NCBI RefSeq assembly: GCF_014876185.1 | Contig: NZ_JADALJ010000001.1 | Span: 62,001 to 126,000 of the forward strand | Direction of reading: 5' to 3' | From: Rufibacter sp. LB8 | Lineage (GTDB): Bacteria; Bacteroidota; Bacteroidia; Cytophagales; Hymenobacteraceae | Length of the DNA: 64,000 bases | Part shown: piece by piece, positions 24,923 through 39,141 of the stretch | Position numbering within the stretch: position 1 is the first letter of the stretch | Layout of the letters: each line of letters starts with the position of its first letter | Program-made: the position numbers and the translations under genes | The notes under the pieces: model-generated | Told to the model about the DNA's origin: nothing | Databases searched by the model: none | What the model saw: the letters and a program-made list of their open reading frames with translations, nothing else

Positions 24923-24962
24923 CCGTTTTCGGCTTCATTTCTGAAAATGAGCCCGAAAACGG
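24923..24962. repeat. Palindrome P copy
   Basis: CCGTTTTCGGCTTCATTTC / GAAAATGAGCCCGAAAACGG; one arm change, otherwise intact. Confidence 0.85.
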
Positions 24963-25020: not shown

Positions 25021-25502
25021 GATTCTCCCCTTGAGGGGAGCGCAGAGGGGTGTTTACACCTGCAAATACGCATTTCGTATAATCATTCATGCCCAACAAA
25101 ATCATTCCATACCGGCAAGACCTCAAAGAAAAAGCGAAACACATGCGCAAGAACAGCACCTTGTCTGAGGTTTTACTTTGGCAGGAAATCAAGGACAGAA
25201 AACTGGGATTCCAATTTCACCGACAGGTACCAATGCTCACCTACATCGTAGATTTCTACAGCCACGAATTGCAATTAGCCATTGAAGTGGACGGTGACAG
25301 CCATGATGAAAAAGTGGATTACGATTCCCACCGGGAGGAGGAATTGAAAGCGTATGGTGTGAGAATTCTCAGGTTTGAAGATATTGATGTAAAGCGAAGA
25401 ATTGGGTATGTGCTAGACGAAATTTTCCATTGGATTGAAGAGAACAAGAATAAATGCTCTCCTGTGTAAACACCCCTCTACGCTCCCCTCAAGGGGAGAA
25501 TC
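25021..25502. mobile_element. DUF559 gene framed by 39-bp inverted repeats
   Basis: Arms 25021-25059 and 25464-25502 are inverted repeats matching at 38 of 39 positions. Each arm has an outer hairpin (CTCCCCTTGAGGGGAG) and an inner G-rich tail (GAGGGGTGTTTACAC). The only gene inside is a DUF559 endonuclease, whose stop codon (25467-25469) is part of the right arm and whose ATG is 29 bp from the left arm. The tight fit suggests a transposable or repeat-homing unit of about 480 bp. I see no obvious flanking target duplication. Confidence 0.7.
25089..25469 (+). CDS. DUF559 endonuclease-like protein
   Basis: A 126-residue protein of the DUF559/Vsr-like group in the PD-(D/E)xK nuclease superfamily. 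Visible features are the entry helix STLSEVLLWQEIKDRKLGFQFHRQ (about 23-46), the catalytic core IVDFYSHELQLAIEVDGDSH with Asp55, Glu66 and Asp68, His72, and the following VRILRFEDIDVKRRIGYVLDEI. Vsr itself nicks mismatched DNA, but the activity of DUF559 proteins is not established. A homologue of the same length and layout lies at 31511-31894, also inside inverted repeats. The gene ends within its own flanking repeat. Confidence 0.85.
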   Translation: MPNKIIPYRQDLKEKAKHMRKNSTLSEVLLWQEIKDRKLGFQFHRQVPMLTYIVDFYSHELQLAIEVDGDSHDEKVDYDSHREEELKAYGVRILRFEDIDVKRRIGYVLDEIFHWIEENKNKCSPV

Positions 25503-25557
25503 CACGGTGAATTTGCGCTATTCCAAAAAGCAATCAACAACCAACAACAACAATTTT

Positions 25558-25597
25558 CCGTTTTCAGGCTCATTTCCCAAAACGAAGCCAAAAACGG
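25558..25597. repeat. Palindrome P copy, decayed
   Basis: CCGTTTTCAGGCTCATTTC with right arm AAAACGAAGCCAAAAACGG. Confidence 0.7.
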
Positions 25598-25646
25598 AAC
25601 GCGGGCTGCTTCGTCTTCATCATTCCTAATTCCTAATTCTCAATTC

Positions 25647-29841: not shown

Positions 29842-31086
29842 ATGAAATTCGACGATTACTCCATCAACCCCGCCATTAAGAAAGCCCTGGACAAACTGGG
29901 CTTCAAGAAACCCACAGACATTCAGTTCAAGGCCATACCGCCCATTCTGCGGGGCGAAGACGTGCTGGCCATCGCCCAGACGGGAACGGGCAAGACGGCG
30001 GCCTTCGCCATACCCGTGCTGCACATGCTGCATGAACGCAAGCAGTACGCGCGGCAAGACGGCATTAAGTGTCTGGTCATGGTGCCCACCCGTGAGCTCG
30101 CCATCCAAATCACCGAAGTCTTCCACACGCTGGGCAAACACACCCGCGTAGAAACCATGACCGTGTTTGGCGGGGTGGAGCAGGCGCCGCAAATTTCTAA
30201 ACTGGAAGACGGCATTGATGTGCTGGTGGCCACGCCCGGCCGTATGTTTGACCTGGTGAGCCAAGGCCACATCAGGCTGGAGCGCGTAGAGATACTGGTG
30301 CTAGACGAAGCCGACCACATGCTGGACCTGGGCTTTATCAAAGACATTAGAGACGTGCTGCGCCATTTGCCCCGCAAGCGGCAGACGCTGTTTTTCTCGG
30401 CCACCATCAATGAATACATCAAAGACCTGGCGTACTCGCTGGTGACCAAACCCATCAGAATCCAGATTTCGCCCAAAGACCCCGTATCTAAGAACGTGGA
30501 CCACTCGGTGGCCTACATCGGCATGGATGACAAACGCTTCTTTCTGGAGCGCGTCATCAAAGAGAACGAAGGCAAGAAGATACTGGTCTTCGTGCGTACC
30601 AAGGTCAGAGCCGAGCGCGTGCACCTGGCCATGGAACGCGTGGGCATCAAAACCGAAACCCTGCACGGCGACAAAGAACAGGTAGACCGCCTGGCCGCCC
30701 TCAACCGCTTCCGGAAAGGCGACGTGACCGTCCTGATTGCCACCGACGTGAGTTCGCGTGGCATTGACATCCCGCTGGTGGAGTACGTGGTGAACTATGA
30801 CCTGCCAGACGTCCCCGAAAACTACGTGCACCGCGTAGGCCGCACCGGCCGCGGCACCCACAAAGGCAAATCTGTGTCGTTCTGCAGCCCAGAGGAAAAA
30901 CCCATCTTAGACGTGATTGAAGAGTACCTGGGCAAACCCATCAAAGTGCTGGACATTGAGAAAAACGACTACTCCGCCACCATTGACTTCTCTGCCGAGG
31001 TAAAGCCAGATTTGAAAGCGCTTTTGAAAGAAGTAGAGGAATTTGAGAACGCCCCCAAGAAAAAGAAGAAGCCTAAGAAGAAGTAG
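29842..31086 (+). CDS. rhlE: DEAD-box RNA helicase, RhlE-like
   Basis: ATP-dependent RNA helicase of 414 residues acting in RNA metabolism or ribosome assembly. All core motifs are present: the Q motif (FKKPTDIQFKAIPPIL), Walker A AQTGTGKT (45-52), PTRELAIQ, TPGR, DEAD (about 155), SAT, ATDVSSRGIDIP and HRVGRTGR. The start MKFDDYSINPAIKKALDKLG is the classical RhlE opening. It ends with a Lys-rich tail (PKKKKKPKKK) that can bind RNA. Monocistronic; a variant A hairpin unit follows the stop and may act as its terminator. Confidence 0.93.
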   Translation: MKFDDYSINPAIKKALDKLGFKKPTDIQFKAIPPILRGEDVLAIAQTGTGKTAAFAIPVLHMLHERKQYARQDGIKCLVMVPTRELAIQITEVFHTLGKHTRVETMTVFGGVEQAPQISKLEDGIDVLVATPGRMFDLVSQGHIRLERVEILVLDEADHMLDLGFIKDIRDVLRHLPRKRQTLFFSATINEYIKDLAYSLVTKPIRIQISPKDPVSKNVDHSVAYIGMDDKRFFLERVIKENEGKKILVFVRTKVRAERVHLAMERVGIKTETLHGDKEQVDRLAALNRFRKGDVTVLIATDVSSRGIDIPLVEYVVNYDLPDVPENYVHRVGRTGRGTHKGKSVSFCSPEEKPILDVIEEYLGKPIKVLDIEKNDYSATIDFSAEVKPDLKALLKEVEEFENAPKKKKKPKKK

Positions 31087-31122
31087 CCCCACCCCAACCC
31101 CTCCCCAACGGAGAGGGGCTTT
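31085..31122 (+). repeat. Hairpin/G-tail unit, variant A
   Basis: GCCCCACCCCAACCCCTCC then CCAACGGAGAGGGGCTTTTT, starting at the rhlE stop codon. The T5 could end rhlE transcription. Confidence 0.8.
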
Positions 31123-31130
31123 TTGGAATC

Positions 31131-31170
31131 CCGTTTTTGGCCTCGTTTTGTGAAATGAGGCCGAAAACGG
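31131..31170. repeat. Palindrome P copy, second compensated variant
   Basis: CCGTTTTTGGCCTCG and TGAGGCCGAAAACGG. The GGGCTC/GAGCCC stem is changed to GGCCTC/GAGGCC on both arms. Confidence 0.85.
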
Positions 31171-31199
31171 GATTTTTTTGTTTTGGGGCAATGCGTAGG

Positions 31200-31230
31200 A
31201 ACCCACCCCTACCCCTCCGAGGAGGGGAGT
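31200..31230 (+). repeat. Hairpin/G-tail unit, variant B
   Basis: ACCCACCCCTACCCCTCC then GAGGAGGGGAG. First of four B units around the second DUF559 gene (31200 forward, 31465 reverse, 31910 forward, 32060 reverse). The 231-31464 stretch between the first two holds no gene. Confidence 0.8.
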
Positions 31231-31464
31231 TGCTTCGTTTTTATGGGGTATTGGGGAAAGGGTGTTGGTGGTATTTTGCTTTTAGGTGAGGTTGGTTAGG
31301 AATGGTTGATTAAGAAGGTTTGATCTGGAAATAGGTTGAAGTGAACTTCCCTAATTGATTGACTTAATTGTATTGGTACTATTTTCCGCAAGAGTGAAGT
31401 TCTTAATTGGAGTAAAACCAAAAGCCAACTTTCATGTTTCCACTTTACCTCCACGCATTCCCGA

Positions 31465-31941
31465 TACTCCCCTCCTCGGAGGGGTAGGGGTGGGTTCTTA
31501 CAACAGGAGGTCATAAAGGCTTTTTTTGTTCCCTCTTCTCTTCCACCCAAATCTCAATTGTACGCAGCACATTGCCCATGTCTTGCTTTACTTCTTCATC
31601 AGTAAACCGGAGTAAGCGCACGCCCAGACTCTCCAACCGTTGTTGCCGAAGTTCATCTTCTTCAAAAGTGTAGTCATGACTGTCGCCGTCAATCTCAATG
31701 GCCAATTGTAACTCCTTGCAATAGAAATCCACAATGTAACTGTCCAAGGGTTTCTGCCGGTCGAAGTCAAGGCCGAGCACTCCTTTATTTTTCAGTACAT
31801 CCCAAAGAAGAATCTCAGCTAACGTACTGTTCTGTCTGAGTTTTTTAGCCAGTTCTTTTAGATAGGGCTTGTAGGGAATGATGGTTCGGCGCATGGGCGG
31901 GCGTCTTTTTACCCACCCCTAACCCCTCCGAGGAGGGGAAT
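31465..31941. mobile_element. Second DUF559 gene framed by inverted hairpin/tail units
   Basis: Left arm 31465-31500 (hairpin CCCCTCCTCGGAGGGG, tail TAGGGGTGGGTTCTTA) and right arm 31910-31941 are inverted copies with one indel. The layout equals the unit at 25021: hairpins outside, G-tails inside. The gene between them ends 10 bp from one arm and starts 15 bp from the other. The arm sequences differ from those at 25021, so each DUF559 gene appears matched to its own arm type. Confidence 0.65.
31511..31894 (-). CDS. DUF559 endonuclease-like protein
   Basis: A 127-residue homologue of the 25089-25469 product. Same helical entry (STLAEILLWDVLKNKGVLG), core IVDFYCKELQLAIEIDGDSH with Asp56, Glu67, Asp69 and His73, and C-terminal VRLLRFTDEEVKQDMGNVLRTIEIWVEEK. 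All expected PD-(D/E)xK positions are intact, so it should be functional. No neighbouring methylase or restriction gene suggests a restriction role. Both DUF559 genes in this window lie inside inverted repeats. Confidence 0.85.
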   Translation of the reverse strand: MRRTIIPYKPYLKELAKKLRQNSTLAEILLWDVLKNKGVLGLDFDRQKPLDSYIVDFYCKELQLAIEIDGDSHDYTFEEDELRQQRLESLGVRLLRFTDEEVKQDMGNVLRTIEIWVEEKREQKKPL

Positions 31942-32059
31942 AGTTCATACTGTTGGTGAGGTTCTTCCATGAATTTAAGTGCTACTTCTTTTGAATTAGA
32001 TTTTTTCGGCAAAATACATATTGAGAGACCCTTGATTCCATTAATGCCAATACCAGAAA

Positions 32060-32091
32060 TTCCCCTCCTCGGAGGGGTTAGGGGTGGGTTC
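32060..32091 (-). repeat. Hairpin/G-tail unit, variant B
   Basis: CCCCTCCTCGGAGGGG then TTAGGGGTGGGTT. Fourth B unit; the 118 bp between it and the unit ending 31941 contain no ORF. Confidence 0.8.
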
Positions 32092-32193
32092 CTACTCTAG
32101 CTTTATGCCACAACTAGAGCATGTTAAGATTAATTGGGTCCCTGAAATTCATTCACTATAAACCTTCTCTAAACATAAGTATAAATCAATCGT

Positions 32194-32225
32194 AATAAAT
32201 GTTTAGGTTTGTCTAAATATTTATT
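32194..32225. promoter_or_regulatory. Dyad over the TonB-receptor promoter
   Basis: AATAAATGTTTAG (32194-32206) and CTAAATATTTATT (32213-32225) form a 13-bp inverted repeat with one mismatch. The -7-like TAGGTTTG (32204-32211) lies inside it, 33 bp before the ATG. The core TTTAGG..TCTAAA resembles DtxR/MntR-type metal operators. Confidence 0.5.
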
Positions 32226-32244
32226 GTGACTTGCTTTATTATTT

Positions 32245-34500
32245 ATGAATAGAAAAATACTGCTTCTCTTTGTCATACTATTACCCTTTCAACTTTTAGC
32301 CCAGAGCCTTTCCATTTCCGGCACGGTGAAAGATGGGCAGACGCTGGAGCCGCTGGGTTTCTGCACAGTACGCCTGCTGGAAACTACCAATGGCACCATG
32401 ACCGATGAAAAAGGAAGGTTCAAGCTGTCTGTTCCAGGGTCTGCTCAAAACCAAAAGCTGGTGGTCTCTTTCCTGGGCTACCGAAATGACACAGTTTCCA
32501 TTCAAGCGGGAAAAACCAGCTATGCCATCTCCTTAAGACCAACGCAGGGCGCGTTAAGTGAAGTGGTGGTCACTGGCACCATGAAGGAAATCAGCCGTCT
32601 GGAAAGTGCGGTGCCCGTGGAAGTCTACACGCCCAGCTATTTCAAGAAAAACCCGACGCCTACTTTGTTTGAGGCGGTGGTCATGATTAACGGCGTGCAG
32701 CCCCAGCTCAACTGCAACGTGTGCAACACCGGCGACATTCACATCAACGGAATGGAAGGCGCCTACACGCTGATTCTGATTGACGGCATGCCCATTGTCA
32801 GCAGCTTAGCCACCGTGTACGGTCTCAACGGAATCCCGAACAGTTTGGTAGAACGGCTGGAAGTGGTGAAAGGCCCGGCGGCCTCTTTGTACGGGTCAGA
32901 GGCCATGGGCGGCATTATCAACGTGATTACCAAGAGCGCCCTGAAAGCTCCCAAAGTCAGTGCCGAAGTCTTCGCCACGTCTTGGCAGGAACTGAGTACA
33001 GACGTAGGGTTGAAAGTGAAAGCAGGCAAGGCGCACGGGTTACTGGGCATCAATTACTTCCACTTCCAGAACAAGGTAGACAAAAACGAAGACGGCTTTA
33101 CAGACCTCACCCTGCAGCAACGCATCTCGGTGTTCAATAAATGGGATTTTGAGCGGGAGGAGAACCGGCAGGCTAGTATGGCGGCACGCTATGTCTACGA
33201 AGACCGCTGGGGCGGACAGACCAATTGGACGAAAGCAGACCGCGGCTCAGACCAGGTGTACGGTGAAAGCATCTACACCAAACGCTGGGAACTGATTGGC
33301 ATGTACCAGTTGCCGGTTCGGGAGAAAATTATGGCGCAGCTCTCACTTAACGGGCACAAACAGAATTCTTTCTACGGTACCATGCCGTTTCACGCGGACC
33401 AGTACGTGGCCTTCGGGCAAGTGTACTGGGACAAGCAGATAGGGTTGAGTCACAATTTGTTGGTAGGCAGCTCTTTTAGGTACACGCATTATGATGACAA
33501 CACGGTTGGTACGGCCAATACGCAAGGGGAGAATCAGCCCGCTACTACGCCCTTGCCTGGGCTGTTTGTGCAGGATGAATGGAGCCTCACGAAGAAACAC
33601 AAACTCCTACTAGGCTACCGCTATGACTATGACAAACGGCACGGGCACATCCAGTCGCCCAGGGTGGCGTTGAAATGGTCGCCGAGCCCGCAGCATACGT
33701 TCAGGGGAAGCTTCGGGACGGGTTACCGCGTGGTGAGCCTGTTCACCGAAGACCATGCCGCCCTCACCGGTGCCCGCGAGGTGGAAGTGCCTGAAGAACT
33801 GAATCCGGAACAATCCCTTAACAGCAACCTGAACTACGTGTGGCAAGCACCGCTGGAACCGTTCTTAGTAACGGTAGATGTAACCGGGTTTTACTCCTAT
33901 TTCAGCAACAAGATCATCGGCGACTTCGACACGGACCCAGACAAGATCATCTACCGCAACCTGCGCGGCCACGCCATTTCCAGAGGTGTTTCTGTGAACA
34001 GTGAGCTGTCTTTTTATATTCCGTTGAAGGTGCAGGCAGGCGTGACCTACATGCAGGTGTACCAGAAAGAAGCAGCAGAAGGAGAGGGACCATTAGTGAA
34101 AAAGCAGCAGTTGCACGCACCGGAATGGTCGGGGAATTTCCTGGTGGGCTACACGTTTCCGGGGCAGTTTGTGATTGATTTCACTGGTACCTTCACCGGC
34201 CCTATGCGCTTGCCTATCCTGCCCAATGATTACCGGCCGGAGTACTCACCGTGGTTCAGCATCATGAATGTGCAGCTGACCAAGAAATTCGGGAATGGCA
34301 TAGAAGTGTTTGGCGGTGTGAAAAACCTGCTGGACTTCGTGCCCAAAGACCCAATCATGCGCGCCTTTGACCCGTTTGACAAAACCGCCAATGACCCTGT
34401 CACCAACCCGAACGGGTACACCTTTGACCCCAGTTACAACTACAGTTCCTTACAAGGCATCAGAACGTTTTTGGGGCTGCGGTACAGCTTGTTTAAATAA
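32245..34500 (+). CDS. TonB-dependent outer-membrane receptor
   Basis: A 751-residue outer-membrane importer powered by TonB. Signal peptide 1-19 (ending QLLAQ), CarboxypepD-regulatory-like domain (about 22-100, SGTVKDGQTLEPLGFCTVRL), plug (about 105-235) with the TonB-box-like ALSEVVVTG and VVKGPAASLYGSEAMGGIIN, then the barrel ending in the aromatic C-terminus GLRYSLFK. The plug contains LNCNVCNTGDIHINGMEG, a Cys pair seen in a subgroup of Bacteroidota receptors. Ligand unknown. The dyad overlapping its promoter looks like a metal-responsive operator, which would fit a metal or metallophore substrate, but that is inference. Confidence 0.92.
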   Translation: MNRKILLLFVILLPFQLLAQSLSISGTVKDGQTLEPLGFCTVRLLETTNGTMTDEKGRFKLSVPGSAQNQKLVVSFLGYRNDTVSIQAGKTSYAISLRPTQGALSEVVVTGTMKEISRLESAVPVEVYTPSYFKKNPTPTLFEAVVMINGVQPQLNCNVCNTGDIHINGMEGAYTLILIDGMPIVSSLATVYGLNGIPNSLVERLEVVKGPAASLYGSEAMGGIINVITKSALKAPKVSAEVFATSWQELSTDVGLKVKAGKAHGLLGINYFHFQNKVDKNEDGFTDLTLQQRISVFNKWDFEREENRQASMAARYVYEDRWGGQTNWTKADRGSDQVYGESIYTKRWELIGMYQLPVREKIMAQLSLNGHKQNSFYGTMPFHADQYVAFGQVYWDKQIGLSHNLLVGSSFRYTHYDDNTVGTANTQGENQPATTPLPGLFVQDEWSLTKKHKLLLGYRYDYDKRHGHIQSPRVALKWSPSPQHTFRGSFGTGYRVVSLFTEDHAALTGAREVEVPEELNPEQSLNSNLNYVWQAPLEPFLVTVDVTGFYSYFSNKIIGDFDTDPDKIIYRNLRGHAISRGVSVNSELSFYIPLKVQAGVTYMQVYQKEAAEGEGPLVKKQQLHAPEWSGNFLVGYTFPGQFVIDFTGTFTGPMRLPILPNDYRPEYSPWFSIMNVQLTKKFGNGIEVFGGVKNLLDFVPKDPIMRAFDPFDKTANDPVTNPNGYTFDPSYNYSSLQGIRTFLGLRYSLFK

Positions 34501-38868: not shown

Positions 38869-39141
38869 GTCCCCCTTTGAAGGGGGTAGGGGGATGATAA
38901 CTCTTGCTGAGGTTTTTTCTATGGCGCGGATTTATATCATTTCTCTCCCGCAAGTTTAGCGGCAGCGTAACTTGTGGTGTTCCAAGTTGTGAGTTTATAA
39001 ACTCACGTCAGTTGATAAACTGACCAAGTGTATTCCCACAAGTTACGCTGCCGCTAAACTTGCGGGAGATTTCGTTTCATAGGCTTCGTTCTTCTTATTT
39101 GAGGCGTCTTTGTCATCCCCCTACCCCCTTCAAAGGGGGAC
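38869..39141. repeat. Perfect 30-bp inverted repeats, hairpin/tail type
   Basis: Arms 38869-38898 and 39112-39141 are identical in inverted orientation (hairpin CCCCCTTTGAAGGGGG outside, tail TAGGGGGATGA inside), the layout of the DUF559 units. They enclose 213 bp without a gene, and may be a non-autonomous relative. Confidence 0.8.
38944..39069. repeat. Perfect 34-bp inverted repeat
   Basis: Arms 38944-38977 and 39036-39069 are exact reverse complements; inside are the palindromes GAGTTTATAAACTC (38991) and GTCAGTT/AACTGAC. It lies within the 38869-39141 pair. The gap 38834-39384 holds no gene besides these repeats. Confidence 0.9.

Follow-up and report, generated by a model that had tools for sequence, protein, structure and literature searches.

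The question raised by this locus is why a small DUF559 nuclease gene should be tightly enclosed by two nearly identical inverted hairpins, and whether gene and hairpins travel together. It lies in a 64,000-nucleotide stretch of the Rufibacter sp. LB8 genome (hereafter the window, in whose coordinates positions are given). The unit at 25021–25502 measures 482 bp and consists of a 39-bp arm, 29 bp, an ORF of 126 aa and an inverted 39-bp arm:

25021–25059, plus strand: left arm, hairpin CTCCCC-TTGA-GGGGAG with an inward G-rich tail; class II triplex motif at 25025–25051
25089–25469, plus strand: DUF559 (PF04480) nuclease gene, 126 aa, EDxHD/Vsr-like fold; stop codon within the right arm
25464–25502, minus strand: right arm, 38/39 identical to the left arm and inverted; triplex motif at 25472–25498

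An earlier note on this DNA had described arms that match in inverted orientation at 38 of 39 positions, fit the gene tightly and each consist of a hairpin plus an inward-pointing G-rich tail, and all three points were confirmed: the sole mismatch is GCGCAG versus GCGTAG, the ORF starts 29 bp past the left arm and it stops inside the right one. The symmetry of the tail goes beyond that description. After the hairpin and a 3-nt spacer comes the tail AGAGGGGTGTTTACAC, in which GAGGGG repeats the hairpin arm GGGGAG in mirror order and not as its complement. The order is pyrimidine arm, loop, purine arm, mirror tail, and a scan for this layout recovers both window arms, which on their sequence fit the class II intrastrand-triplex layout set out in PMC4666352. 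The unit has terminal inverted repeats, a trait of insertion sequences and MITEs, and a domain search of its ORF gave DUF559 only, with no known transposase and no Y1_Tnp match.

The arms resemble the BoxC/PIT/TM_ECO repeats of PMC4666352 as far as the accessible sections of that paper describe them, these also being dispersed hairpins with a mirror-repeat G-rich tail that are partly arranged as inverted pairs. The TM_ECO consensus (CCCTCNCCC N3-6 GGGNGAGGG N3 GGGNGAGGG) has the same three-part layout as the window motif (CTCCCC-GGGGAG-GAGGGG) but another sequence, and those sections give the repeats no nuclease partner, whereas here DUF559 is proposed as the partner. With strong hairpins at both ends, the arms could also simply terminate transcription in both directions around a small gene that is perhaps toxic. 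We consider this very improbable, as the arms have no T-run and do have the mirror-repeat tail, PIT/BoxC elements had neither promoter nor terminator activity in an earlier study cited in the portion of PMC4666352 consulted, and the copies that lie in frame within metH (below) would presumably have to be transcribed through.

Three DUF559 genes are present in the LB8 genome, each with a repeat family of its own beside it (A, B and C); the three families have one architecture. The window gene at 25089–25469 has one A arm on each side, the second gene (at about 31.5 kb of the window) has a B inverted pair on each side, and the third, elsewhere in the genome, has both copies of its C motif on the 3′ side only. 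The B and C copies within the window are:

31511–31894, minus strand: second DUF559 gene, about 127 aa (ends of the frame placed by eye), with B-type repeats on both sides
31203–31493, no single strand: B-type triplex motif inverted pair (31203–31227 minus, 31469–31493 plus), 3′ of the second DUF559 gene, with no DUF559 between
31913–32087, no single strand: B-type triplex motif inverted pair (31913–31938 minus, 32062–32087 plus) directly upstream of the second DUF559 gene
38871–39139, no single strand: C-type triplex motif inverted pair, of the family found beside the genome's third DUF559 gene

The exact A hairpin occurs in 15 copies in the 4.75-Mb genome (reversed-pattern control, 0). Besides the pair around the gene there are solo copies and four A inverted pairs spaced 141–227 bp start to start, which is too short to hold DUF559. 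The sequence GTTTACACAGGAGAGC of the DUF559 unit recurs exactly at one end of one of these four gene-less pairs; two others of the four have it at an end with a single difference. Such a shared sub-terminal sequence, though short, is what deletion derivatives would be expected to show.

In REP/RAYT systems a single-gene enzyme, a Y1 HUH (Y1_Tnp) transposase encoded between the repeats, is accompanied by hairpin repeats that have a conserved GTAG-type tag beside the hairpin, match the lineage of the enzyme and are dispersed as non-autonomous inverted pairs. Dispersed hairpins, many of them in inverted pairs, are also seen in the LB8 genome, and the analogy with REP/RAYT drawn in the earlier note holds in architecture, in that here too a single-gene enzyme goes with hairpin repeats, gene-less inverted pairs, solo copies and lineage-specific repeats. 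It does not extend to the parts themselves: the enzyme is a DUF559 nuclease instead of a Y1 HUH transposase, and the window repeat has a mirror (triplex) tail without the GTAG tag of REP, both arms beginning with GATTCTCCCC.

Flanking arms were then looked for around DUF559 genes in relatives, 70 of 98 of which have DUF559. The sample comprised 93 loci (three own, 30 from the search and 60 fetched) picked by score and genus, not at random, and was divided into 83 short DUF559 genes (reading frame <250 aa) and ten longer frames that were counted separately. An inverted pair scoring at least 20 within 400 bp was present at 67 of the 83 short genes versus 2 of 600 segments drawn at random from the same loci, and such a flanking pair was present at seven of the ten longer frames. 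In a control, flanks mispaired between different DUF559 loci also scored at least 20 in 52 of 410 pairings, which is explained by the motif class that these loci have in common. With genes called by a simple ORF rule, 42/55 DUF559 genes and 13/468 other genes of the same loci have a flanking inverted repeat scoring at least 20; for genes with intergenic gaps on both sides the figures are 31/36 and 9/210. By the layout scan, 77 of the 83 short genes (17 of 600 random segments) have a triplex motif no more than 300 bp away, the motif density being 2.48 per kb near the relatives' DUF559 genes and 0.073 per kb in random segments. Across all 93 loci the scan put the motif on one side only in 32 and found none in eight, and at the 53 two-armed loci the nearest arms have tails inward in 21, tails outward in 19 and direct orientation in 13. 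Flanking arms around DUF559 are not a chance occurrence.

A second sample of named loci, mostly Pseudomonadota by title, consisted of the best 80 of 512 from one genome scan, which used the closer alignment A2 as the cross-phylum alignment A1 was too diverse. Among these best 80 an inverted pair scoring at least 20 was found at 46/78 loci (an N-run artefact having been dropped from 47/79) versus 16/740 segments, and a triplex motif within 300 bp at 69/80 versus 20/750 random segments, the layout scan giving no motif at the other 11. Where these best 80 have the motif on both sides, it is inverted with tails inward in 42 of 46 cases, outward in one and direct in three. The earlier note had named a usual lack of such arms at DUF559 genes in related genomes as evidence against its reading; in both samples most DUF559 genes have them. 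Thirty-one plasmid records have a DUF559 match, and of the 12 examined four have a flanking pair scoring at least 20 (Pseudanabaena, two Deinococcus and Sphingomonas), two have one scoring 18–19 (Synechocystis and Picosynechococcus) and six have a best pair of 16 or less. By record labels, the arm–DUF559 bracket recurs in several phyla.

The relationship between a nuclease and its arms was examined by comparing protein and arm similarity between genomes, with values centred per genome pair to remove the effect of host relatedness. For 85 loci with arms (3238 gene pairs, 805 genome pairs) the correlation was r = 0.746, while 300 shuffles of the arms among the DUF559 genes of one genome gave a mean of 0.006 (sd 0.097, maximum 0.33). 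The arms of two DUF559 genes in one genome are unlike (median similarity 0.325, n = 56) and those of similar DUF559 proteins in different genomes are alike (median 0.80, n = 228). Nuclease and repeat evolve together, and arm sequence follows DUF559 lineage once host relatedness is removed. This bears on the possibility that a repeat mobilized by something else, for example a Y1/RAYT transposase, has caught the DUF559 gene between two of its copies as a passenger. Y1_Tnp (PF01797) matches do occur in 15 of 16 genus genomes, that of the window included, and one genome of the genus (G006) is rich in A-type repeats (41 A-pattern matches, 10 of them a 3-mismatch variant) and has no A-type DUF559, its one DUF559 being of another type. 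However, G007, which also has one DUF559 of another type, has 24 A-pattern matches yet no Y1_Tnp match, and lineage-matched arms would not be expected of a passenger, nor would bracketing by one motif class across several phyla, which makes this explanation quite unlikely. Conversely, an A-type DUF559 gene can be present with few A repeats (one match in G005, three in G001). A simple link between gene and copy number was not found within the genus, unlike in the enterobacterial family described below, and given these copy numbers loss, decay or another mobilizer must be allowed for.

The 126-aa window protein was assigned to PF04480 (DUF559) with E = 3e-30 in the domain search, PF18741 also being matched but below the cut-off. 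In a Foldseek search with a structure model of the protein (mean pLDDT 85) 3hrl ranked first and the catalytic domain of the homing endonuclease I-Bth0305I (3r3p) second with E = 8e-5; later matches, with E above 0.01, include mitochondrial ribosomal proteins and 5hmC restriction enzymes, and Vsr (1vsr) was at rank 12 (probability 0.97, E = 0.08). Among 173 sequences conserved positions were D55 (173), D68 (172), H72 (171), E27 (170) and D79 (170), and in our reading E27, D55, H72 and D79 correspond to the letters of EDxHD. The median dN/dS of the domain was 0.065 (45 A-type pairs, of which 10 gave a usable value and 35 did not), which indicates that the DUF559 gene has been kept functional. 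PADLOC gave only weak matches for the window nuclease (E = 1e-4 at best). In the literature, a cyanobacterial genome paper placed a DUF559 gene in the EDxHD family (PMC9403480), a YcjD profile detected Vsr (PMC1189080), and Caulobacter VsrA, which contains DUF559, was proposed to be a mismatch-repair nuclease (PMC12907096). Vsr has a fold related to that of the window protein, whose partner here is a repeat.

If the unit is mobile its location should differ between genomes, and the genus was searched accordingly. Eleven related units, ten with A-type arms and a more distant one (L072) with another arm, occupy nine contexts, and at the threshold used flanks are common to three of them only (those in G001, G005 and G011), the other eight sharing none. 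The clearest comparison is provided by metH, in which four genomes (G001, G010, G013 and G018) have a DUF559 unit in the linker between two B12-binding domains. The halves of the host gene are 497–537 bp apart in these four, whereas the other 18 aligned genomes have 36–60 bp there, and among the metH relatives examined the closest to each filled gene has an empty linker of 36–48 bp. Each filled metH thus has an empty closest relative among the 22 aligned (G001–G005 at 97.9%, G010–G015 at 96.8%, G013–G007 at 96.3% and G018–G027 at 93.7%), so that presence of the unit changes between close relatives. Both arms are clear in three of the filled genomes and the left arm is degenerate in G013. The unit is read through in frame within metH of G001, where the arms encode peptides such as PHPQPLSHGEG and PSPRERGQG, and of G010 and G013; G018 differs in that its metH reading frame is broken into two that overlap. 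For the window unit itself no empty site was found, since the neighbouring 503-aa and 518-aa genes did not turn up side by side in the genus genomes searched. No clear target-site duplication was seen at metH or at hrpB–mrcB of Escherichia coli (below), the alleles at both places being diverged. The earlier note had suggested that endonuclease and repeats move or convert as one unit, and had named fixation in every relative as evidence against this; the nine contexts and the filled and empty metH genes show that such units are not fixed and support the suggestion, the action of the nuclease on the arms being the step that we infer.

DUF559 was also found inside other long reading frames. Of the 26 long frames all but L309 and L310 were scanned for further domains, and L300 and L312 gave no second domain. 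DUF559 lies in frame in genes for leucyl-tRNA synthetase (four), a UvrD-type helicase (four) and restriction methylases (three); further frames holding it are one for a PD-(D/E)XK protein, three glutamine-amidotransferase (GATase_5) genes, at whose end it lies, and one recQ-like gene, at whose start it lies. Two more are again metH, with DUF559 inside the activation domain in one (L306 in G083) and in the same linker as in the four filled genomes in the other (L308 in G093), the layout scan finding no triplex motif near the latter. A triplex motif lies near 12 of the 16 long DUF559 frames fetched later. Some in-frame copies outside metH may be old domain fusions, metH being the gene that was compared with empty relatives. 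The restriction-methylase genes are of the Eco57I and Type ISP types (L303, L304 and L305). Rickettsia palindromic elements are similar to the in-frame units in being palindromic and inserted in frame in unrelated genes but differ in size (about 150 bp) and, in the segments of PMC10969869 at hand, no nuclease gene is mentioned for them.

The metH insertions and the fold match to the I-Bth0305I homing domain also suit classical homing, in which a fixed target is cut in empty alleles and double-strand-break repair copies the gene, the arms being by-products or repair structures. DUF559 resembles the EDxHD homing endonucleases (I-Bth0305I, 3r3p) in catalytic-domain fold, conserved residues and filled and empty alleles; occupied and empty alleles at one site were found at metH, for other copies of the family and not for the window's locus, and there the patchy insertions fall four times in the same linker with the closest of 22 aligned relatives empty each time. 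However, a fixed long target does not predict lineage-matched repeats, dispersed gene-less repeats or nine contexts in one genus. DUF559 units differ from the EDxHD homing endonucleases in lying outside introns and inteins, in having triplex arms and in occupying many locations, and DUF559 comprises little more than the catalytic domain, without the extended DNA-binding region of the EDxHD homing enzymes described in the available part of PMC3943268. Classical homing is therefore rather unlikely. It is also conceivable that DUF559 is a VSP-like mismatch or structure repair enzyme kept against hairpin and triplex repeats, co-occurrence reflecting tolerance and not mobility. In the sections consulted, PMC12907096 reports that Caulobacter VsrA, with its DUF559, drives (and is needed for) the SOS response in a methyltransferase mutant, and PMC4666352 links triplex repeats in E. 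coli to instability and places them at unstable sites. A trans-acting repair enzyme has no need, though, to lie between two repeats of matching type or to enter metH together with them, and we regard this explanation as improbable.

A mobile unit with triplex-capable ends might also account for repeats already known in E. coli, whose DUF559 gene is ycjD. The ycjD–fabI gap of K-12 holds CCCTCGCCCCTCTGGGGAGAGGGTTAGGGTGAGGGG, which is TM_ECO number 9 of 23 (1351239–1351204; Table 1 of PMC4666352). In strain 118UI the end of ycjD runs directly into another such motif, 12 nt of which are missing in K-12, and the available text of PMC12817139 reports a 12-nt length difference that matches. Presence and absence of ycjD was considered as a clean empty site and rejected, since the one ycjD-less strain read has efflux genes in its place; that text reports the like for an operon in many strains. 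In three E. coli strains the hrpB–mrcB interval has an inverted motif pair (K-12), none (254D-1) or an internal deletion (an O111 strain), and zntA–tusA has the motif in all three strains read.

The association was also tested at the level of whole genomes in the family of the Lelliottia genome G100, which we take to be Enterobacteriaceae. Of its 119 genomes 13 were scored as having DUF559 (best E 3e-19 or better), among them one with an internal stop and one with the gene broken in two, and seven with weak matches (E 1e-5 or worse) were scored as lacking it although three of these carry the motif. The published TM_ECO motif occurs in 12 of the 13 DUF559 genomes versus 10 of the 106 others. 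At least five motifs are present in 11/13 versus 5/106 (Fisher p = 3e-10, an optimistic value because genera are not independent), and without the 48 genomes under 3.5 Mb the association has p = 1e-7. In at least four carriers (G188, G201, G204 and G216) a motif lies 9–12 bp from the matched DUF559 domain. In the portion of PMC4666352 available (Holder 2015) no mobility functions were found around triplex motifs and their origin is called unclear, and its main text has no occurrence of DUF, ycjD or endonuclease. Triplex motifs that sit at unstable places and lack a known mover fit the mobile-unit account.

From these results we consider it probable that the window locus is a compact mobile unit, a DUF559 nuclease gene bracketed by two inverted triplex-capable hairpin–tail motifs that serve as its ends. 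The bracket, its recurrence, the lineage matching, the shorter pairs and solos, the filled and empty metH sites, purifying selection and intact catalytic residues are the observed part of this reading. In the mechanism that we propose, the DUF559 nuclease would recognize the motif of its own unit, probably in single-stranded, folded form where the replication fork exposes it, and would nick or cut there, whereupon repair or template switching might copy the unit, or a gene-less deletion derivative of it, to a new place. Movement would resemble that in homing or REP/RAYT but proceed by hydrolysis rather than through a covalent tyrosine transposase, and in E. coli ycjD together with the BoxC/PIT/TM_ECO repeats would be a decayed remnant. 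We infer, in other words, that the nuclease binds or cuts the arm and so drives movement. The orphan A repeats of G006 and G007, the few in G001 and G005, the 13 direct pairs, the one-sided loci and the lack of a visible target duplication fit poorly. Also to be weighed against the account are the loci at which the layout scan gave no motif, the six plasmid loci lacking a flanking pair, the degenerate left arm in G013, the third LB8 gene with its two motif copies on one side, and the mismatch-repair role proposed for VsrA.

Packages of this kind at changing places in many bacteria suggest that the DUF559 family spreads the widespread repeat known in E. coli as BoxC. Taken further, and with somewhat less assurance though we still lean towards it, they would form a new class of selfish DNA in several phyla, made up of units of about 0.5 kb with an EDxHD-fold nuclease and two triplex-forming ends, in which each lineage reads its own end, enters intergenic DNA and, in frame, housekeeping genes, and is the source of the gene-less BoxC/PIT/triplex repeats. 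The repeats and the nuclease family are each already known and it is the joining of both that is new; no report linking DUF559 to these repeats was found among open-licence PMC papers. We have filed the unit as a new kind that works like REP/RAYT and homing genes and is a member of neither, because its enzyme differs from RAYT and its ends differ from REP. If this is true, BoxC/PIT/triplex repeats, which are present in hundreds of genomes with no known source, become tied to a named enzyme family, a hydrolytic nuclease can fill the part played by a tyrosine transposase for REP sequences, and DUF559, hitherto of unknown function and carried by 70 of 98 relatives, is the enzyme of a mobile element. 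The metH insertions are natural filled/empty pairs for work on mechanism.

Some further observations were made on sequences in and around these units. The gap between two syntenic genes (31000–32400) that holds the B-type DUF559 unit in the window holds an A-type unit in G001, G005 and G011. A lone triplex motif at 1755–1793 belongs to the CCTCACCCCCGGCCCCTCTCC type, which occurs around the DUF559 units of other genera. Several A-type copies (L030, L031, L032, L033 and L035) contain or adjoin another short palindrome, GTAGGGGCGTATCGCATACGCCC or a near form of it. A second, different hairpin family (CGTTTTCGGGCTCATTT...) brackets the window unit on the outside, at 24923–24962 and 25556–25599. 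Genome-wide this family gives 126 forward and 115 reverse matches with up to three mismatches (the hairpin is palindromic, so the strands overlap; control, 0), and it brackets another A-type unit (L085) as well.
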